This document shows, piece after piece, positions 35,175 through 46,870 of a stretch of DNA of 64,000 bases (its first letter is position 1; each line of letters starts with the position of its first letter). The stretch is from Neotamlana nanhaiensis (GTDB lineage: Bacteria > Bacteroidota > Bacteroidia > Flavobacteriales > Flavobacteriaceae): the NCBI RefSeq assembly GCF_000943555.1, contig NZ_JTDV01000001.1:434001-498000 (forward strand), in the 5' to 3' direction. The translations under genes and the position numbers were made by a program. Under the pieces are notes generated by a model. The model was given only the letters and a program-made list of their open reading frames with translations, had not been told where the DNA came from and searched no databases.

Positions 35175-36521
35175 ATGAAACATTTCTGCTTCATCATGCT
35201 AGCCTTTCTAGCATTTTCCTGCAAACAAGAAACCAAAACAACAACAGAAACTTTAGCAACAAACATCGATCTTTTTCCTGATGGCACAGAAATTCCAGAA
35301 TGGTTTAAAGATTATTCTAAAATTAACCCAAAAGATTTAGGCAAGTTTTATAGCGTAATCGATTACGGTGCTAAAAACGATAGTACTCTATTACAAACTA
35401 AAGCCATACAAAACACTATTGATGAGGCTTACCGTAATGGTGGTGGCGTTGTGGTTATCCCTAAAGGAACCTTTTTAAGTGGTGCTTTATTTTTTAAACC
35501 TAACACACATTTACATGTTGAAGAAGGTGGCGTTTTAAAAGGATCGGATAATATTGAGGATTACCCAATTAGGCCTTCGCGTATTGAAGGACAAAGTATT
35601 GAGTACTTCCCGGCGCTTGTTAATGCTTATGGTATTGATGGATTTACCATTACAGGTCACGGAATTATTGATGGTAATGGCTTAAACTATTGGAAAGCCT
35701 TTTGGCAACGTCGTGAGGAAAACCCTAAATGTACCAATTTAGAGGTATCCAGACCACGTTTGGTATTCATCTGGAAATGTAATAATGTTCAAGTACAAGA
35801 TGTTAAATTACGTAATTCGGGCTTTTGGTCTAGCCACTATTACCAATGTAACTACGTTAAAATATTAGATTTACGCATTACCTCGCCACACAAACCTATA
35901 AAAGCACCAAGTACCGATGCGATTGACTTAGACGTTTGTTCTAACGTCTTGGTAAAAGGTTGTTATATGGCGGTTAACGACGATGCTATTGCCTTAAAAG
36001 GTGGTAAAGGGCCTTGGGCTGAAAAAGATGCGAGTAATGGCGAAAACACCAACATTATTATTGAAGATTGCGAATTCGGATTTTGCCACGGTGCGTTAAC
36101 CAATGGTAGTGAATCTATCCACAACAAAAATATTATCATGCGTCGTTGTAAAGTCGATTCAGCCGTACGTTTATTATGGCTAAAAATGCGACCAGATACA
36201 GCGCAAAAATACGAATACATTACCGTTGAAGATATTACAGGGCAAGTACGTAGCTTTATTTACATTAAGCCATGGACTCAGTTTTTCGATTTAAAAGGTC
36301 GTGAAGATGTGCCACTATCCTATTCTGATAACATTACCATGAGAAACATTGATGTGGAATGTGATATTTTCTACGATATGAAAATTACTGAATATGACAA
36401 ACTTTCAAATTTCACTTTTGAAAATATTGACATTGAAACTAAAAATGCTGAATACGATAAATCGATTATTGAAGGCGTTGCATTTAACAATGTAAAAGTT
36501 AACGGAAAAATCATTGAATAA
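35175..36521 (+). CDS. Glycoside hydrolase family 28 lipoprotein (polygalacturonase-like)
   Basis: This 448-residue right-handed beta-helix enzyme has a lipoprotein signal (FIMLAFLAFSCKQE), so it is probably tethered to the cell envelope. It opens with the GH28 N-terminal segment FYSVIDYGAKNDSTLLQTKAIQ. Catalytic motifs are STDAIDLD, NDDAIALKGG, the histidine in FCHGALTNGSE and the RLLWLKMRPD segment in place of RIKT. These support hydrolysis of a galacturonan-type or related uronic-acid polymer, with exact specificity unknown. The CE7-like esterase starts 11 bp downstream, so the two likely act together on an acetylated glycan. Confidence 0.9.
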   Translation: MKHFCFIMLAFLAFSCKQETKTTTETLATNIDLFPDGTEIPEWFKDYSKINPKDLGKFYSVIDYGAKNDSTLLQTKAIQNTIDEAYRNGGGVVVIPKGTFLSGALFFKPNTHLHVEEGGVLKGSDNIEDYPIRPSRIEGQSIEYFPALVNAYGIDGFTITGHGIIDGNGLNYWKAFWQRREENPKCTNLEVSRPRLVFIWKCNNVQVQDVKLRNSGFWSSHYYQCNYVKILDLRITSPHKPIKAPSTDAIDLDVCSNVLVKGCYMAVNDDAIALKGGKGPWAEKDASNGENTNIIIEDCEFGFCHGALTNGSESIHNKNIIMRRCKVDSAVRLLWLKMRPDTAQKYEYITVEDITGQVRSFIYIKPWTQFFDLKGREDVPLSYSDNITMRNIDVECDIFYDMKITEYDKLSNFTFENIDIETKNAEYDKSIIEGVAFNNVKVNGKIIE

Positions 36522-36532
36522 AATATAAGCAA

Positions 36533-37822
36533 ATGAAAATCCGCGCTTTAATTTTAACTATCCTGTTTCTTACAGGTTACAATTTAAAAGCCCAAAACTC
36601 ACCTGCACCAATTAAATTGGTGCAGTTTGTTTTAACACCAAATCATAACGATTGGAATTATAAACTAAACGAAAATGCTGTTATAAAAATTCAGGTATTA
36701 AAGCATTTTGTCCCTTTATCTAACATTGAAGTTAGTTATCAATATGGTAACGAATTAATGCCACCTGATAAAGAAGGATCCGTGTCATTAAAAAACGGAC
36801 AAGCATCGATAAACATTGGTAATTTAAAAGCCCCTGGATTTCGCCAATTAAAAGTAAAAGTTACCGTTGATGGCTATACATATCGGGATCAAGTAAAAGT
36901 GGGCTACAATCCGTTTGATATTGAGCCGACTTTAAAATTACCAAACGATTTTGTGTCCTTTTGGGAAAAGGCCATAGAAGCTAATAAAGCCATCCCCATG
37001 GAACCTGTGGTAACATACAAACCCGAACTTTCTACACCAACCGTTGATGTATTTTTAGTACGCTTACAAAATTTCAAAAAAAACAAACACCTTTATGGCT
37101 ATTTAAGCAAACCGAAAGATGACAAAAAACATCCCGTTTTGTTTCATCCACCTGGTGCTGGTGTTAAAAAAATTGATCCAGTTTATGCTTTTGCAGAAGA
37201 GGGATTCATCAGTTTTACTACTGAAATCCATGGCATAACTCCTGAAATTTCAAAAACCGATTACAAAGATATTAGCAGAGCCATTGGTAATTACTGGAAA
37301 ATCGATTTAAACGATAAAGATGCTTATTATTACAAAAGTGTTTACGTGGGCTGTACGCGAGCCATCGATTTTTTAACCAGTTTACCCGAATTTGATGGCA
37401 AAAATGTGGTGGTTACAGGCGGTAGTCAAGGTGGTGCTTTAACTATTATTACGGCTGGTTTAGATAAACGTGTTACGGCTTTAGCTTCATTTTATCCCGC
37501 TTTAAGCGATAATTCAGGATACTTAAAAAATAGAGCTGGCGGATGGCCACATATGTTTAGCTATCCTGAGTATTCATCAAAAGAAAACATTGAAACCATG
37601 CGTTATTACGATGTGGTAAATTTTGCTAAACAAATTACTGCTCCTGGTTTTTATTCCACAGGTTACAATGATAACACCTGCTCGCCAACCAGCGTACTTT
37701 CAGCTTTTAATAGTGTTCACGCTCCAAAAGAAATTGTTATCACTCCTATTTCAGGACATTGGCGATTTGGAGAAACCAACGATACAGCCATCAATTGGCT
37801 TAAAGAAACCTCCGGTTTATAA
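36533..37822 (+). CDS. Secreted acetylxylan esterase-like protein (CE7/AXE1 type)
   Basis: This 429-residue protein has a signal peptide (ALILTILFLTGYNLKAQ), an N-terminal Ig-like beta domain of about 100 residues, and an alpha/beta-hydrolase domain. The latter has GYLSKPKDDKKHPVLFHPPGAG, the nucleophile GGSQGGALTI, a late strand with acid (GYNDNTCSPTS) and the histidine motif ISGHWRFGE. CE7 enzymes deacetylate xylan oligomers and other acetylated carbohydrates. Its gene follows the GH28 gene by 11 bp. Loss of acetyl groups would open the polymer to the hydrolase, an inference from the pairing. Confidence 0.88.
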   Translation: MKIRALILTILFLTGYNLKAQNSPAPIKLVQFVLTPNHNDWNYKLNENAVIKIQVLKHFVPLSNIEVSYQYGNELMPPDKEGSVSLKNGQASINIGNLKAPGFRQLKVKVTVDGYTYRDQVKVGYNPFDIEPTLKLPNDFVSFWEKAIEANKAIPMEPVVTYKPELSTPTVDVFLVRLQNFKKNKHLYGYLSKPKDDKKHPVLFHPPGAGVKKIDPVYAFAEEGFISFTTEIHGITPEISKTDYKDISRAIGNYWKIDLNDKDAYYYKSVYVGCTRAIDFLTSLPEFDGKNVVVTGGSQGGALTIITAGLDKRVTALASFYPALSDNSGYLKNRAGGWPHMFSYPEYSSKENIETMRYYDVVNFAKQITAPGFYSTGYNDNTCSPTSVLSAFNSVHAPKEIVITPISGHWRFGETNDTAINWLKETSGL

Positions 37823-39438: not shown

Positions 39439-39613
39439 AAAGATTGCCACGTCGTGCCCCCTCGCAATGAGATTAACATTGCATAAAACAGAATCAGATA
39501 TTGAAAACCAAACGTCAATCTTAACCGTCATTGCGAACGTAGTAAAGCTATCTTTTAAATTCTAGTTCTCTTTGAAAGATTGCCGCGTCGTGCCTCCTCG
39601 CAATGACAGAAAC
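39439..39613. repeat. Cluster of three TCATTGCGAGG-type intergenic repeats
   Basis: Between two convergent genes lie three copies of a short unit: AAGATTGCCACGTCGTGCC continuing to CCTCGCAATGA (39440-39470), an inverted diverged copy CGTCATTGCGAACG ending AGCTATCTTTT (39526-39555), and GAAAGATTGCCGCGTCGTGC continuing to CTCGCAATGACAG (39574-39609). Opposed copies can fold into a long hairpin. This unit is common in Bacteroidota intergenic DNA. No gene is seen here. Confidence 0.8.
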
Positions 39614-39631
39614 TTTTACAACACGTATATT

Positions 39632-40438
39632 TTATAATACCACAAACGGATAATCAATCACCATTTGAACACCTTCATTAGGTTGTGAAGTAAGATCTAA
39701 TTTGGCATTTACAAGGTTGGCTCTACTTTTCATGTTTAGGAGTCCTGCGCCTTTTTTAATGGTACTCATGTCGAAGCCTTTTCCGTCGTCTTCAGCAGTA
39801 ATAATGAGGCGTTCTGGTTTATAATCTAAGTTGACTTTTAAATTTTCGGCTTCAGAATATTTTACCGAATTGGATAAAAACTCCTGCAAAATCCTGAAAA
39901 TTATTATTTCGTGTTTTCGGTTTTCAAACTCTATTTTGTCACCAACTACTTTTAATTCCGCGGAAGCGAACTTCATCTTTTTTAATCGCTTCAACTCGTT
40001 GTTTATAGATTTCTCGAAACCAATATTTAGTACCACTTCGTTGTTTAAGGTTCTTGAGAGTTGTCTGACTTCATGTAAACTTTGACTAAGAGCTTCAGTC
40101 GTATCTTTAAACTTATCTTTTACCTCATCTTGAACTTGCATTTTAAGTATACTTAACTGCATGCTAGCAAAGGATAATAATTGCCCTACGTTATCGTGTA
40201 ACTCCCAACCAATATTTTTTAAGGTTTGCTCTTGGGTTTCGGTTTGGGCTTGCGCTATTTCTTGCTCGAAAGCCTGTTGCTGCTTAATTTTATCGAGCAA
40301 TAATTTATTTTTTCGCTTTTGAAAAACTATAAAAAATACTATAACTAACGAGGTAATAATAACCAAAACGGCTATCATGTAAATGAGTAAATAACGTTCG
40401 GAAGCGGTACTCGCTAAACGCTCTGTGGTTTGCACCAT
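39632..40438 (-). CDS. NarL/LiaS-type sensor histidine kinase with minimal sensor region
   Basis: This 268-residue kinase has one N-terminal membrane helix (YLLIYMIAVLVIITSLVIVFFIVF), a coiled coil, a HisKA_3 dimerisation domain with the phosphorylated histidine in NIGWELHDNVGQLLSFAS, and a HATPase domain (EFLSNSVKYSEA, DDGKGFD, AGLLNMKSRANLV). It lacks a periplasmic or PAS-type sensor. I start it at the ATG at 40438 (MVQTTERLA), giving a 25-bp overlap with the upstream seven-helix gene; longer in-frame starts would add hydrophobic residues that do not fit the family. No response regulator is adjacent. It is the last gene of the seven-helix operon. Confidence 0.88.
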   Translation of the reverse strand: MVQTTERLASTASERYLLIYMIAVLVIITSLVIVFFIVFQKRKNKLLLDKIKQQQAFEQEIAQAQTETQEQTLKNIGWELHDNVGQLLSFASMQLSILKMQVQDEVKDKFKDTTEALSQSLHEVRQLSRTLNNEVVLNIGFEKSINNELKRLKKMKFASAELKVVGDKIEFENRKHEIIIFRILQEFLSNSVKYSEAENLKVNLDYKPERLIITAEDDGKGFDMSTIKKGAGLLNMKSRANLVNAKLDLTSQPNEGVQMVIDYPFVVL

Positions 40439-41118
40439 AATAGAATACATGTAAAAGTTATATACATAAATAAGTTGGCAAACATTAAAATTTGCCATTT
40501 TAAAAAAACGTAATCCCAATCGGCAGTCGTGTTGTAGCGATCAAAAACACTAATTGGCGTTACAACAAGCCACCAAAGAAAAATTGTAATACTAATATAA
40601 AAATTTATTGATTTATAGAAGTAAAATATCTGATTACTGGATAATTTCTCGGTAAAATAAAAAATACAACTTAATAAAATGAGTAAAGCGCCAAAATTAT
40701 CTATTAACGGGAGTTCCCCCTTAAAATAGGCATCTGTATTAAACATAATTAAACTCACACTAAAAATTACAAATGCAAATCCCAATATTTTTAATAGTTT
40801 ACGTAAAGTTTTACGCTTTAAAATTTTATGAAAATAAAAAAGATAGAAACTAACGGCTCCTATGCCCCACATGAGTGTAAACCACCAAGAATTTCGAGCA
40901 AACTTGGTACCTTTAAAAAAACTGAAAATTCCATTATTTTCAACATAGCTCGCGTAGCCACCTACGAAATCTACCAAAAAACTGTAAAGCAAAAAGAAAA
41001 TAAAATATTTAATTGTTGTGTGCTTGTATTTTCTATAAAGTAATACTCCTGTTAAAGCTGCTAAGGCTTCTATTGAATAGATAACCAAGCTGTAATACTT
41101 TAATAAAAACTCGTGCAT
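40414..41118 (-). CDS. Seven-helix membrane protein, array member 4
   Basis: This 234-residue protein has seven predicted transmembrane helices and no recognised domain. It shares with the next three genes a TM1 glutamate (IEALAALTGVLLYRKYKH), an aspartate in TM2, WWFTLMWGIGAV in TM3, the signature FYKSINFYISITIFLWWLVVTP in TM6 (about residues 163-184), and DYVFLKWQILMFANLFMYITFT in TM7. It lacks the Lys of WKIGA seen in the others (WGIGA). It overlaps the kinase gene by 25 bp, the tightest coupling in the array. It may be the direct partner of the kinase. Confidence 0.85.
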   Translation of the reverse strand: MHEFLLKYYSLVIYSIEALAALTGVLLYRKYKHTTIKYFIFFLLYSFLVDFVGGYASYVENNGIFSFFKGTKFARNSWWFTLMWGIGAVSFYLFYFHKILKRKTLRKLLKILGFAFVIFSVSLIMFNTDAYFKGELPLIDNFGALLILLSCIFYFTEKLSSNQIFYFYKSINFYISITIFLWWLVVTPISVFDRYNTTADWDYVFLKWQILMFANLFMYITFTCILLWCKPQSV

Positions 41119-41127
41119 GTTCTAAAA

Positions 41128-41835
41128 CTAATGTTTTTTTAGTTCGTTTTTACAAAAAATTAAAGCAAATGTAAAGGTTAGATACATACTTAGGTTTGCA
41201 AACAAATAAATTTGCCACTTTAGAAAAACAAAATTCCAATCTTCTTGAGAATTATAAATATCGTAAAATACCAAAGGTGTAATTATTAGCCACCAAATAA
41301 ATATAGCGGCACTTACGTAAAAATTTATCGATTTATAAAAACTTAAAACAGTATTGCTGTGTAATACTTCGAAAAAATAAAAGATGGTACATAAAAATAC
41401 AATCACTGCTCCAAATATGCTTATTACAGGAAAAGAACGTTTAAAAAAGGCCGTAAAATTAAAACCAATATAGCCTAAAGAAAACAGTAAGAATGCTATT
41501 GCGGTATATTTTAAAATAAGCTTAAAACGACTATTGTTTAGGTTTTTGTGATAATAAAACGCCAAAAATAAAATAGCTCCAATTTTCCAATATATGGTGT
41601 ACCACCAGTAATTCCACTCCAAAACAGTACCTTTTAAAAACGGAATGTAGCCGTAATAAACTAAATAAGCGTAGCCTCCAAAAATATCGCCTAACGCAAC
41701 GCCCACCAAAAACCAAATAAAGTATTTAGCATTACTCAACTTATAATGTTTGTATAAAACTAAACCTGTAACGGCCGCTAAAACCTCAGCGAAATGCGTG
41801 ATAAATGTAAAGTACTTTAATAAAAAGGCTTCCAA
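41128..41835 (-). CDS. Seven-helix membrane protein, array member 3
   Basis: This 235-residue paralogue of the neighbouring genes has seven predicted helices, the TM1 pattern AEVLAAVTGLVLYKHYKL, WWYTIYWKIGAILFLAFYY in TM3, FYKSINFYVSAAIFIWWLIITP in TM6 and NFVFLKWQIYLFANLSMYLTFT in TM7. The start ATG at 41835 aligns with its siblings. It lies 9 bp upstream of member 4. The 99 bp before it, after the frameshifted member 2, contain a TATATTTA -7-like box on the minus strand and may hold an internal promoter. Function unknown. Confidence 0.85.
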   Translation of the reverse strand: MEAFLLKYFTFITHFAEVLAAVTGLVLYKHYKLSNAKYFIWFLVGVALGDIFGGYAYLVYYGYIPFLKGTVLEWNYWWYTIYWKIGAILFLAFYYHKNLNNSRFKLILKYTAIAFLLFSLGYIGFNFTAFFKRSFPVISIFGAVIVFLCTIFYFFEVLHSNTVLSFYKSINFYVSAAIFIWWLIITPLVFYDIYNSQEDWNFVFLKWQIYLFANLSMYLTFTFALIFCKNELKKH

Positions 41836-41934
41836 TAAAACTAAAGGCTATTAATGATTAGGGTAAAATTGTAAATATATAAAAGCTAAAATAAAGTGTA
41901 GATGTTTTATTATTGCTATAAACTAACCTATTAT

Positions 41935-42629
41935 TTATTCTGGATTACAATATATTAAAGCAAACGTAAAGGTTAAATACATACAAATATTAGCAAATAT
42001 ATAAACTTGCCATTTTAAAAGAATAAAACTCAAGTCCAAATTAAAATGGTAGTAATCAAAGAAAATTAAAGGTGTAATAACCAACCACCATATAAAAATT
42101 GAGACACTGATGTAAAAATTAATAGACTTAAAACAGATAAGACTGAATTACTTTGTACAACCTCATAGAAATAAAACATAGCGCAAATTATGATGATGAT
42201 AGCTCCAATAATTGAAATTGAAATAAACGATTTTACAAAATACTCATCAAAATTTAATAAAATACAGCCAAAAGCATAAATTAAAAAAACAATATTAACA
42301 TATTTTAAAACGGCTCTTAACCGCTCTATTTTTAAAACTTTACGGTAATAAAAAATGAAGAAAGCAATAGCTCCAATTTTCCAAAAAAGTGTACACCACC
42401 AATAATTCCAGGCGAAAATGGTACCATGTAAAAAATGTAAAAACCCATCACGTATAAAACGCACGTAATTGCTTAAAGTATCACAGATTGTTAAATACAC
42501 TAAAAACCATATAAAATACTTGGTGGCTGCATGCTTGTATTTTTTATATAAAATTAAACCCGTAATTACTGCTAAAAACTCAACGGCAAAGGTTACATAA
42601 CTGTAATATTTCAATAGAAAATCTTCCAA
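41935..42629 (-). pseudogene. Seven-helix membrane protein, array member 2, frameshifted
   Basis: The reading frame from 42629 matches its siblings through VVQSNSVLS and then runs into unrelated residues, ending at 42066. In the next frame the expected sequence resumes at SINFYISVSIFIWWLVITPL and continues through KWQVYIFANICMYLTFTFAL to a stop at 41935. Between the two serines the sibling has nine bases for F-Y-K while here there are eight, so one base is missing near 42127-42134. The 695-base span plus one base gives 231 residues, the length of its siblings. The break may be a real mutation or a homopolymer sequencing error (a TTTTAA run). Confidence 0.85.
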
Positions 42630-42640
42630 ACAAACTATTA

Positions 42641-43360
42641 CTATTCTAGCACCTTAGTTTCCTCTGGCTTACAATAAATCAAAGCAAAAGTAAAGGTGAA
42701 ATACATACATAAATTGGCGAATAAGTAAATTTGCCATTTTAAGAAAATAAAATTCCAGTCACCATTAAAGTGATATAAATCATAGAATACCAAAGGTGTA
42801 ATAATGAGCCACCAAATAAAAATAGCTGTACTTACGTAAAAATTTAAGCTTTTATAAAACGTTAATATGCTGTTACTACTCAATACTTCTATGAAATAAA
42901 ATATAGTACACATAAAAATAATTAATGCTCCTAAAACACTTATTACAGGAAATGACCTAACAAAATACTCTTCCCAATTTAAAACTATATATATGAGACT
43001 AAAGCATAAAAAAGTAATACCCGAAAATTTTAAAACTTTCTTAAATAAAGTACTGTTTAAAACTTCTACATAGTAAAATACAAAGAATATTACAGCTCCT
43101 ATTTTCCAAAATAACGTAGACCACCAGTAGTTATAAACAAATTTTGTATCCTCTAAAAAACTTAATACTCCACCGTAAATTAAATACACATATTTACCGG
43201 CCGAATCGCATATTGTTAAATAGATTAAAAACCAAATAAACCATTTATATTCTTTTATTAATGAGTACCGCTTATATAATAAAATACCCGTAAAAGCTGC
43301 TAAGCTCTCTACAAAAAAAGTAAGATAATTATAGTTATCAAATAAAAAATCATTTATCAT
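42641..43360 (-). CDS. Seven-helix membrane protein, array member 1
   Basis: This 239-residue protein is the first of the four paralogues in transcription order. It has seven predicted helices, VESLAAFTGILLYKRYSL in TM1, CDSAGKYVYLIYGG after TM2, WWSTLFWKIGAVIFFVFYY in TM3, FYKSLNFYVSTAIFIWWLIITP in TM6 and DWNFIFLKWQIYLFANLC leading into TM7. The tail ends with CKPEETKVLE. Its start overlaps the stop of the upstream membrane-anchored gene by 4 bp (ATGA type), so the two are translationally coupled. Function unknown. Confidence 0.85.
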   Translation of the reverse strand: MINDFLFDNYNYLTFFVESLAAFTGILLYKRYSLIKEYKWFIWFLIYLTICDSAGKYVYLIYGGVLSFLEDTKFVYNYWWSTLFWKIGAVIFFVFYYVEVLNSTLFKKVLKFSGITFLCFSLIYIVLNWEEYFVRSFPVISVLGALIIFMCTIFYFIEVLSSNSILTFYKSLNFYVSTAIFIWWLIITPLVFYDLYHFNGDWNFIFLKWQIYLFANLCMYFTFTFALIYCKPEETKVLE

Positions 43361-43878
43361 TTGGGTGGGTAACCTCCTTGTCCTGTACCTCCATCATTTA
43401 AAGGTGGTAGCGGAATATCTCCATCATCAGGAGGTAATATAAAATTTAAACTACTCGCTTTACTTTTACTTGGGTTACCTGTTGGCACAATAAACATGGT
43501 ATTACGGTAACGTTTTGGTGGTAATGCTTCCTTACCATAATTTCCTAAATACACCCGTAAACCTGTAAATGAATACCCTAAAGAATCAGCTCCAGATTTT
43601 GCATAGACGATGTATTGATTTATATCATCAATAGACCACCAAACCGATTGCGTTTTTTTTCTTGAACCTTCTAATTCCAACAAGGTATCAATTTCGGTTT
43701 TATTGTATTTTCCCCAATTGGCGCTAAGCTGTGTTGCTTCAGCAATAGATATGGTATCTTTTGGAGCTTTAGCCATCATATTTTCTGGCCCTCCAACAAC
43801 GCATTGCTTCGGACAAAAATAATAGGTTAAAACCGCTCCAATAATCAAACCTAAAATAAGGTATGCTAATTTTTTCAT
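43357..43878 (-). CDS. Membrane-anchored extracytoplasmic protein leading the seven-helix operon
   Basis: This 173-residue protein has an N-terminal helix (LAYLILGLIIGAVLTYYFCP) that acts as a signal anchor or signal peptide, a soluble domain of about 110 residues with WWSIDDINQYIVYAKSGADS and LRVYLGNYG, and TMFIVPTGN, and a proline/glycine-rich tail (PPLNDGGTGQGGYPPK). I recognise no named domain, although proteins with this VYxGxY and MFIVPT pattern are familiar in Flavobacteria. Its ATGA overlap with seven-helix member 1 suggests it works with the array, possibly as a ligand-binding partner; that is inference. Confidence 0.8.
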   Translation of the reverse strand: MKKLAYLILGLIIGAVLTYYFCPKQCVVGGPENMMAKAPKDTISIAEATQLSANWGKYNKTEIDTLLELEGSRKKTQSVWWSIDDINQYIVYAKSGADSLGYSFTGLRVYLGNYGKEALPPKRYRNTMFIVPTGNPSKSKASSLNFILPPDDGDIPLPPLNDGGTGQGGYPPK

Positions 43879-43946: not shown

Positions 43947-44573
43947 CTACGATGGAAAGCCTAACATCGCGCCTAACCCTACGGTAAACAACCAACAACC
44001 GTAAATGGCATGCTCAACAGATACTAAAAGTGTCGATTTTGTTTTGGTAAATGTAAACGCAAATAACAACCCGCCAATAAACGTAAGTAGCAGCACCAAA
44101 ACGTTTTTAAAAAAGATATGCCCCAAGCTAAACACCAAAGCATTTAAAACAATTAAAACATTGGTATTCGAAATAAGCGCTTTATACCTCGCAAAGAAAA
44201 AGGTACGATACAACAGTTCCTGTGGATACACCGAAAACAAACTATAAACAAACAAAATGAAAAACCATAATTTAGGTTTGTTTACCATCACCTGAAACAA
44301 CAATTCTTTATTAGTAACATATACAAATAGTGTTGTTACCATGGCTATTACCAAGAGCTTTACTAATGTGACTTTCCAGAATTTACGCCAATTAAGGTGT
44401 TTATTTATTCGAAATTTCTGATTTTCAACTTTTAATAACATATAAATTACATAAGCAAACCCCAATATTCCTAAAGTCAACTTTAAACAAGATGCATACG
44501 GAAATACAAAACTTACAGGAAGTAATATAAAAATGATAAAAAACTCGGAAGCTTTATACGGTTTTGACTTCAT
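43947..44573 (-). CDS. CPBP-family intramembrane metalloprotease-like protein
   Basis: This 208-residue protein has several predicted helices and the three CPBP/Abi motifs: YPQELLYRTFFF (Q-E form of EExxxR), ALVFSLGHIFF with the first histidine and VEHAIYGCWLF with the second. The family includes Rce1-type CAAX prenyl proteases, and in bacteria is tied to bacteriocin self-immunity and membrane-protein cleavage. I start it at the ATG at 44573 (MKSKPYKASEF), since an in-frame ATG at 44684 lies in repeat-derived DNA. The substrate is unknown. The 68 bp to the next operon hold no clear feature. Confidence 0.85.
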   Translation of the reverse strand: MKSKPYKASEFFIIFILLPVSFVFPYASCLKLTLGILGFAYVIYMLLKVENQKFRINKHLNWRKFWKVTLVKLLVIAMVTTLFVYVTNKELLFQVMVNKPKLWFFILFVYSLFSVYPQELLYRTFFFARYKALISNTNVLIVLNALVFSLGHIFFKNVLVLLLTFIGGLLFAFTFTKTKSTLLVSVEHAIYGCWLFTVGLGAMLGFPS

Positions 44574-44648
44574 GGAACCTATTTTTAAGTAGATTAAAGT
44601 TACGGATTTTGGTGGAGACGTTTTTGTTTTGTTTGGAATTCTTGGGTT

Positions 44649-45670: not shown

Positions 45671-46870
45671 ATGGCATTTAAACCAGCAAATAACATACAA
45701 GACTTACAATATTTTGGCGAATTTGGAGGTGTAAACCCTTCCATTTCAGATTCATCAACTTATACGTTTTTATCGGCAAAAACCATGTTCGATACTTTTG
45801 AGGGTAACGCCGATGGTTGTTATTTATACTCGCGGCATTCATCACCTTCAAATTTATATTTAGGTGAGGCTTTAGCAGCTATGGAAGACACCGAAACCGC
45901 CAATGTTACGGCCTCGGGTATGGGCGCCATAACAGCAGTATTAATGCAATTATGCAATGCGGGCGATCATATTATTTCTAGCCGAACCATTTATGGCGGC
46001 ACTTACGCATTTTTAAAAAACTTCACACCAAAATTTAATATTGAAACCTCATTTGTTGACATCACCAAATTAGAAACGGTGGAAGCTGCCATAACACCAA
46101 ACACGAAAATATTGTATTGTGAATCGGTTAGCAATCCGCTTTTAGAAATCGCAGGTATAAAAGGTTTAGCAAAAATTGCTAAAAAGTATCATTTAAAATT
46201 GGTTGTCGATAACACCTTCTCACCTCTTTCTATTTCACCTGCAACCTTGGGTGCCGATGTGGTTATTCATAGCTTAACTAAATTTATAAATGGCTCAAGC
46301 GATACTGTTGGCGGCGTAGTTTGCGGCACTCAAGCATTTATCAATGATTTAAGAAACGTTAATGACGGTGCTGCTATGCTTTTAGGAAGTACAATGGATA
46401 GTTTAAGAGCTGCTTCCATTTTAAAAAACTTACGAACGCTTCATATCAGGATGCAACAACACAGTAAAAACGCCTTGTATTTAGCTGAAAAATTTGAAGC
46501 AGATGGCTTAAAAACCGTATACCCAGGTTTAAAATCGCACCCATCCCACGAACTTTATAAAAGTATGATGAATCCGCAATACGGATTTGGCGGTATGCTA
46601 ACTATTGATGTTGGAAATATAGACAAGGCCAACGAACTCATGGAATTAATGCAACATAAAAACTTAGGTTATTTAGCGGTGAGTTTGGGCTTTTATAAAA
46701 CCTTGTTTAGTGCTCCCGGAACTTCAACATCTTCAGAAATACCAGAAAAAGAACAAAAAGCCATGGGTTTAACCGATGGTTTAATACGCTTTTCTATTGG
46801 ATTAGATGCCGATATTGAACGTACTTACGACCTGATGAAGGCATGCATGACATCCTTACATATTATTTAA
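45671..46870 (+). CDS. PLP-dependent Cys/Met metabolism lyase (methionine gamma-lyase-like)
   Basis: This 399-residue enzyme belongs to the trans-sulfuration family (fold type I). It has YLYSRHSSPSNLYLGEALAA near the start, the phosphate-binding SGMGAITAVLMQL, VDNTFSPLSISPATLGADVV and the lysine motif HSLTKFINGSSD, where the lysine would hold PLP. C-terminal FSIGLDADIE is typical. Methionine gamma-lyase, cystathionine gamma-synthase/lyase and O-acetylhomoserine sulfhydrylase are hard to tell apart by eye; methionine gamma-lyase is favoured by its Lrp neighbour. Its last 15 bases overlap a small convergent gene. Confidence 0.9.
   Translation: MAFKPANNIQDLQYFGEFGGVNPSISDSSTYTFLSAKTMFDTFEGNADGCYLYSRHSSPSNLYLGEALAAMEDTETANVTASGMGAITAVLMQLCNAGDHIISSRTIYGGTYAFLKNFTPKFNIETSFVDITKLETVEAAITPNTKILYCESVSNPLLEIAGIKGLAKIAKKYHLKLVVDNTFSPLSISPATLGADVVIHSLTKFINGSSDTVGGVVCGTQAFINDLRNVNDGAAMLLGSTMDSLRAASILKNLRTLHIRMQQHSKNALYLAEKFEADGLKTVYPGLKSHPSHELYKSMMNPQYGFGGMLTIDVGNIDKANELMELMQHKNLGYLAVSLGFYKTLFSAPGTSTSSEIPEKEQKAMGLTDGLIRFSIGLDADIERTYDLMKACMTSLHII

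Follow-up and report, generated by a model that had tools for sequence, protein, structure and literature searches.

Two-component systems in which the sensor is detached from the kinase are already known, UhpC-UhpB, LiaF-LiaS and QseG-QseE among them; a good many bacterial kinases, moreover, lack any sensor that can be recognised. Here we analyse a minus-strand operon in a 64,000-nucleotide stretch of the Neotamlana nanhaiensis genome (contig NZ_JTDV01000001.1, positions 434,001 to 498,000; hereafter the window, in whose coordinates positions are given unless another contig or locus is named), in which a gene for a small protein (A) and a row of genes for seven-helix proteins (T) precede the gene of a histidine kinase devoid of a sensor domain (K). 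We consider this probably to be a two-component system with a detached sensor, with T as the receptor, A as its partner, K as the kinase, and a response regulator encoded either beside K or elsewhere in the genome.

Several described systems resemble this arrangement in part. In UhpC-UhpB-UhpA, too, the membrane sensor is a multi-helix protein of its own, acting together with a HisKA_3 kinase and a regulator of the NarL type; UhpC, however, is a 12-helix transporter relative, whereas T has seven helices and matches no transporter family. Seven-helix receptor modules that feed signalling domains are found in the 7TMR-DISM family (PF07695), but T is fused neither to an extracellular domain nor to a kinase, and shows no above-cut-off or significant profile match to that family. 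Sensory rhodopsin II is likewise a stand-alone seven-helix receptor, one that signals to the separate, helix-bearing transducer HtrII, but T lacks a conserved lysine at the position checked in the seventh transmembrane helix (TM7) and has no profile similarity to rhodopsins. LiaS belongs to the HisKA_3 class and has no large sensor domain, and LiaF is a negative regulator of another family; we know of no tandem arrays and no A-type protein in the LiaF system. QseG, too, is of another family, and it works with a kinase, QseE, that has its own sensor and no seven-helix partner. The likenesses lie in the accessory protein standing beside a core kinase-regulator pair in LiaF-LiaS-LiaR (PMC3543457), and in QseG, a small accessory lipoprotein whose C-terminal domain mediates its action on a histidine kinase (PMC12691602). 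Finally, BtsS is a 7-transmembrane receptor kinase of the LytS type, bringing together seven helices, a LytS-type kinase and a LytTR regulator (PMC10653868), whereas the loci described here encode the seven helices and the kinase in two different genes. In the literature searched, parts of sources lying for the most part outside subscription journals, we recognised no description of the A and T families, of their pairing with two kinase classes, or of T arrays.

Conservation of the A-T-kinase module

An earlier note on this DNA, made from its letters alone, had proposed that A and T act together with the kinase, and the tie between these genes indeed extends well beyond the window. From the best 80 of 100 related loci we obtained 77 distinct close loci, belonging to the Flavobacteriaceae or to genera taken as such, plus one labelled 'Flavobacteriales' and one 'Bacteroidia'. 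A is present in 76 of them (also by direct phmmer searches from the two starting proteins), K in 75, and A together with a kinase in 74; two of the three loci lacking the full set lie at contig ends (L084, L089). Most close loci have a single T (57), while two, three and four copies occur in 15, 3 and 2 loci, respectively.

Weaker T matches were then collected within the same family, where 90 of 149 genomes searched had a match; 60 places were taken, leaving out 12 listed ones and fragments. A was found in 59 of these 60 loci by direct phmmer with two starting proteins, and in all 60 with a profile that includes members of the same set. A kinase accompanies A and T in 52 of them, of the HisKA_3 class in 47 and of the LytS type in 5, and 42 carry a NarL-type regulator. 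In a phylum-wide draw, a broad T profile matched 69 of 395 genomes. Of the 43 matching genomes outside the family, 20 were hand-picked, and their gene chains include a HisKA_3 kinase in 18 cases, a LytS-type kinase in one and a NarL-type regulator in 16; in the remaining locus the kinase lies beyond a second T-like open reading frame (ORF), as judged by eye. A is recognised by profile in 9 of these 20 loci. Outside the window's clade, the usual form is A-T-K-R, with a LuxR-type regulator (R) next door.

Pfam confirmed the second kinase class on examples (PF06580 and LytTR) and likewise the first (HisKA_3 and GerE), and the LytS-type kinases of A-T loci have only a short N-terminal part. Since A and T occur with two kinase classes, they look like an exchangeable sensor module for sensor-less kinases.

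Two further observations concern the neighbours of the module. A gene for a CPBP/Rce1-like membrane protein (P) adjoins A in the window and is found in 43 of the 77 close loci and in none of the 60 weaker ones; P therefore probably lies outside the core of the system, and it was set aside. By eye, a rho-like gene adjoins A-T at eight loci of the weaker set (L157, L159, L160, L163, L166, L167, L170 and L173), those in which no kinase is nearby.

The operon in the window and its kinase

The genes of the window operon, read along the minus strand, follow the order A, T1, T2 (broken), T3, T4, K (Table 1). ORF analysis bore out the earlier description of a minus-strand operon with an N-terminally anchored 173-amino-acid (aa) protein, and the two overlaps given there, of 4 base pairs (bp) between A and T1 (43357-43360) and of 25 bp between T4 and K, are both correct. 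The T genes do form a tandem row, with the other paralogues 46-59% identical to T1, but where four paralogues of about 234 residues had been described just three are intact; T2 is either a broken gene copy or the result of an assembly error.

Table 1. Coding features of the A-T-kinase operon and its upstream neighbour
Feature	Description	Position	Strand	Remark
P	CPBP/Rce1-like membrane protein gene	43947..44588	(-)	directly upstream of A, same strand
A	173-aa small protein: N-terminal hydrophobic anchor, globular domain, conserved C-terminal tail	43357..43878	(-)	tail ...LNDGGTGQGGYPPK
T1	seven-helix protein, intact, 239 aa	42641..43360	(-)	AlphaFold pLDDT 93.8
T2	seven-helix copy, broken; 187-aa ORF	42066..42629	(-)	frame lost near TM6
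T2, C-terminal piece	other frame	41935..42144	(-)	contig 1 475935-476144
T3	seven-helix protein, intact, 235 aa	41128..41835	(-)	TTG start
T4	seven-helix protein, intact, 234 aa	40414..41118	(-)	kinase-proximal
T4/K overlap	25 bp	40414..40438	(-)	
K	histidine kinase of 268 aa; HisKA_3 and HATPase_c after a single helix	39632..40438	(-)	no sensor domain

K was correctly recognised as a one-helix HisKA_3 kinase: it scores above the Pfam cut-offs for HisKA_3 (44.1 bits against 24) and HATPase_c (39.8 bits against 26.4). Its best NCBIfam match is the UhpB model, at 96 bits against a cut-off of 408 and over K residues 42-265 only. Read directly, the window kinase keeps the His, N and G boxes (ELHDN, QEFLSNSVK, DDGKGF and GAGLLNMKSRA). 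In a survey of relatives with four self-made text patterns for these boxes, all four were matched in 72 of 82 kinases without an adjacent regulator, 3 of the 82 matching none, and in 20 of 43 kinases with one, 16 of the 43 missing the G2 pattern alone.

The junction between the last T and K is itself conserved. Among the 75 related loci in which it was measured, with start codons picked by script, the overlap amounts to exactly 25 bp in 46 and to 8 bp in another 15. Since this start region is kept over wide divergence, K is probably co-translated with the neighbouring T. In one congener (L037 8712-9590, L270) a TonB-like gene, recognised by eye, lies on the opposite strand between T and K, and the usual overlap is gone; the T profile gave nothing significant in that gap, and a lost T copy there was discounted.

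Turnover of T on a stable kinase

Comparison with three congeners, two of which align with records of Tamlana laminarinivorans and Tamlana sedimentorum, revealed that the parts of the operon diverge at different rates. K is 86-92% identical between the window and the congeners, close to panB (92-94%), rluA (~94%) and the 399-aa gene at 45671 (88-89%), while identity is 73-79% for P, 63-70% for A and 56-69% for the best pairs of T. The number of T copies shifts as well: the four genomes have four (one broken), two, one, and one along with a decayed 3' end immediately ahead of K. In a phylogenetic tree, T4 groups with the kinase-proximal T of T. sedimentorum (support 100/99) in a well supported lineage apart from T1-T3; T1 clusters with the copies that come first in two congeners (100/81), with T2 and T3 nearby at weaker support (92/86). 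According to this tree, the row in the window reflects an older split together with lineage-specific duplication. Across 52 single-T loci, K is better conserved than either T or A in every K-identity bin down to 60%, and the difference is larger for A.

Such a contrast between K and T is what one would expect if a receptor changed while its kinase stayed constant. The shifting copy number in the genus and the greater divergence of T relative to K make it plausible that multiple T copies broaden specificity, as the earlier note had suggested.

The seven-helix protein T

None of the window copies of T, nor the close and diverse members examined, matches a Pfam or NCBIfam family above cut-off. 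A close match to a transporter or enzyme family had been named beforehand as the finding that would speak against a sensory reading, and the absence of a named family held; scattered Pfam matches on A and T members were below cut-off or weak. The AlphaFold model of T1 predicts a seven-helix bundle (pLDDT 93.8, pTM 0.88), and positive charges mostly favour an N-terminus outside and a C-terminus inside, the first outer loop being mixed. Conserved segments include the third inner loop (mean entropy 1.23), TM6 (1.10) and TM7 (1.35); variation peaks in TM4, in all three outer loops and in the inner C-tail (2.2-2.5). This pattern agrees in part with an inner face that is conserved where it would meet the kinase and an outer side that varies, but the variability of the C-tail is at odds with it.

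Of the motifs first read from the window copies, the acid in TM2 (D/E) stood up best, being present in 67 of the 70 close members of T and in 47 of the 48 diverse ones. The TM1 glutamate is frequent in the close set (66/70) but weak in the diverse one (22/48), and the K and W of FLKWQ are weak even among close members (33 and 34 of 70, respectively). Within the diverse set, a TM6 proline occurs in 46 and a TM7 tyrosine in 44 of the 48 members, 41 of which have both together with the TM2 acid, and an asparagine precedes the tyrosine by four residues in 32. These positions (TM2 acid, TM6 proline, TM7 N-x-x-x-Y) resemble what we take to be the corresponding ones in class A G-protein-coupled receptors (GPCRs); this could be a shared switch or a coincidence.

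A Foldseek search of the PDB with the T model gave 321 matches at E <= 10, the best at E 0.16 and none at E <= 0.001. Among the 50 matches listed, with query-normalised TM-scores of 0.28-0.55, 41 are GPCRs (0.35-0.55, none significant), and the others are three rhodopsins or rhodopsin-like proteins, one adiponectin receptor, one ceramidase and four cytochrome oxidase chains. Since GPCRs dominate solved seven-helix proteins, this list is biased, and the possible likeness of the modelled T to receptors is one of shape. In a 2015 paper, bacterial seven-helix receptors and GPCRs were argued to have a common origin although significant sequence similarity is lacking (PMC4608122); by that argument, missing sequence similarity does not decide the question of a kinship between T and GPCRs.

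Three described seven-helix families were considered for T and rejected. For 7TMR-DISM, the one family to offer any lead, the three intact copies have no PF07695 match and the broken T2 reaches 18.4 bits against a cut-off of 29; in the wider T set, PF07695 matched 1 of 48 diverse members at E 0.0014 and 0 of 26 close ones at E 0.1, and hhalign of T against 15 7TMR-DISM domains of related genomes gave probabilities of 0.9% and 2.2%. T is also a stand-alone protein of 234-239 aa, with no fused extracellular or signalling domain. For microbial rhodopsins, hhalign against 12 near-identical rhodopsins gave a probability of 0.3%, and the TM7 lysine of the window motif (position 208, at the outer start of TM7) is not conserved in diverse T. 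For the PAQR/ceramidase group (CREST), the top histidine column reaches 33% in close and 21% in diverse T, with no conserved metal-site histidine. An hhalign comparison of two T alignments with each other has its first sequence in common and does not serve as a control.

The small protein A

A, too, belongs to no named Pfam or NCBIfam family: the 49 members checked against Pfam gave none, nor did ten distant A-like proteins score above any cut-off in family searches. Its model is moderately confident (pLDDT 81) and contains a folded domain. A fold search with A against the PDB returned nothing at E below 1; a PDB profile search brought up weak matches, to a short stretch in ETV6 constructs (best E 0.00012), that were taken as chance. 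The N-terminus is an anchor in the window and a lipoprotein signal in some homologues, and 112 of 145 homologues have a hydrophobic N-terminus by a simple hydropathy threshold applied to the full open frame.

The most distinctive feature of A is its conserved C-terminal tail. A loose N.G..PP/YP-type motif is matched by 133 of 145 A proteins vs 82 of 505 control ORFs from the same loci, a control set from which the A genes had not been removed; of these 505 ORFs, 92 have PP or YP among their last 20 residues. In the other-family loci, the ORF upstream of T ends with PP, YP or CP..C within its last 25 residues in 15 of 20 cases. The small proteins upstream of T in these distant Bacteroidota (L204-L223) often end in a CPP-x-C-like sequence, which may be metal- or redox-related.

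A second locus and the missing regulator

The same genome contains, on contig 33, a locus with A, one T, K and a LuxR/NarL-type regulator (Response_reg and GerE domains) in that order. Its A and K are 30% and 43% identical to those of the window, and its T is also a paralogue; this locus shows the full form of the system. Among 16 regulator loci of this genome taken for comparison, the contig 33 regulator is the best match of all 43 other regulators drawn from A-T-K-R loci (phmmer E below 1e-40), which at first pointed to its use by the window kinase as well. As noted earlier, no response regulator is adjacent to the window kinase, a situation typical of its clade (1 of the 77 close loci has one) but atypical of the wider family. 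Since the window K keeps its catalytic motifs, a distant regulator is likely.

Three candidates for this role were examined and none retained. The contig 33 regulator was rejected as a general partner of window-type K, having no match at E <= 1e-40 in 37 of 41 genomes with a window-type T (T match E <= 1e-50; not every neighbourhood was read). Two further regulators of this genome, with no kinase in the flanks examined, were followed in 28 of these 41 genomes and in 11 genomes without a T match. The one on contig C13 is present in 28/28 but also in 6/11 (E below 1e-58). The one on contig C5 looked more specific, with E below 1e-59 in 28/28 and a best value of 5.6e-51 in the 11, yet a test in 43 further genomes found it, at E below 1e-59, in 4 of the 5 where no regulator is adjacent and in 20 of the remaining 38, which mostly have A-T-K-R. 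By eye, the C5 regulator (G000:C5:158580-159185), of the NarL type, lies beside a CHAT-like gene.

Other features near the operon

Just past the kinase gene (39440-39620), two similar intergenic stretches and an inverted piece have the look, by eye, of a dispersed repeat. Further along, a polygalacturonase-like gene is followed by an esterase-like gene (35175-37822, by eye), which suggests pectin use in the neighbourhood of the operon.

Discussion

We propose that T is a stand-alone seven-helix receptor, with its N-terminus outside and its C-terminus inside, that would sense a signal and pass it through helix contacts to K, a one-helix kinase with no sensor of its own. A would be a dedicated partner of T, a ligand-binding or gating subunit that may use its conserved C-terminal tail. 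K would then phosphorylate a regulator, the adjacent LuxR/NarL-type one in most loci outside the clade and presumably a distant one in the window. Tandem duplication and loss would have given the row of four T genes, and one kinase probably takes the input of several receptors. The earlier proposal that T and A sense a ligand and steer the kinase thus gains support from the co-occurrence of these genes with the kinase, the absence of which had been named beforehand as grounds for rejecting it, while needing amendment as to the broken copy, the siting of A, and the regulator, which stands next to the kinase in 42 of the 60 weaker loci and in 16 of the 20 outside the family.

Several observations weigh against this proposal. 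The functions assigned to A, T and K derive throughout from genome context. At eight of the 60 places in the weaker set, A-T or A-T-T has no kinase in its vicinity, and no T-K fusion was found, with no open frame longer than 304 aa among the T matches listed in the 395-genome draw. The inner C-tail of T is as variable as its outer loops. In the single-T loci where P is present, T lies just 2.5-6.4 identity points below P per K bin, which makes the genus comparison and the copy number the clearest signs of fast change in T. Of the 41 genomes with a window-type T, only 4 carry the regulator usual for the family (E <= 1e-40), or 4 of the 37 near-complete ones. Moreover, 33 of 145 A homologues have no hydrophobic N-terminus even in the full open frame (39 in a cruder first pass), so A, though anchored in the window as first described, cannot act from outside everywhere; either the side on which it works differs between lineages, or the contact it makes is independent of side.

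The alternative that fares best, although we think it unlikely, is that T and A restrain or stabilise K, as LiaF restrains LiaS, with no ligand involved and K itself sensing the membrane. The single helix and very short outer segment of K are indeed like those of intramembrane-sensing kinases, and the T-K overlap suggests a fixed co-expression; the duplication, decay and divergence of T beside a near-constant K nevertheless fit a specificity part better than a fixed brake.

We regard as rather improbable that T is mainly a transporter or membrane enzyme whose state is read by K, with A as a substrate-binding protein and sensing as a side product. UhpC is a transporter-like sensor and so provides a precedent, the kinase-less loci may mean that A and T have their own job, and the TM2 acid is nearly invariant. 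However, no transporter or enzyme family emerged for T above the Pfam or NCBIfam cut-offs, T has no conserved histidine and hence no PAQR/ceramidase-type metal site, and the 50 PDB matches listed (of 321) are mostly GPCRs, none significant and from a group over-represented among solved seven-helix proteins. Very improbable, finally, is a peptide-signalling circuit like agr, in which the A tail would be processed to a signal (perhaps with P), T would process or receive it and K would report, for although the tail motif is enriched over the control ORFs and P stands upstream in over half of the close loci, signal peptides usually diverge whereas the tail is the conserved part of A, A also has a folded domain, P is missing from every weaker locus, and some A proteins have no export signal.

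With T as the probable receptor, the order of the genes ties two unnamed Bacteroidota families to sensor-less kinases, and thereby offers a candidate sensor for each such kinase. The natural T arrays and the two kinase classes permit a direct test of specificity. It is conceivable, although we hold it doubtful, that the Bacteroidota possess a phylum-wide family of stand-alone GPCR-like seven-helix receptors which, together with a dedicated small partner, plug into interchangeable sensor-less kinases of two classes and, through gain and loss of copies, grow into small arrays that share one conserved kinase. Should the T fold prove truly GPCR-like, this would bear on the origin of stand-alone seven-helix receptors; and if the wider scheme were true, T arrays would be a bacterial counterpart, in logic, to chemoreceptor repertoires.

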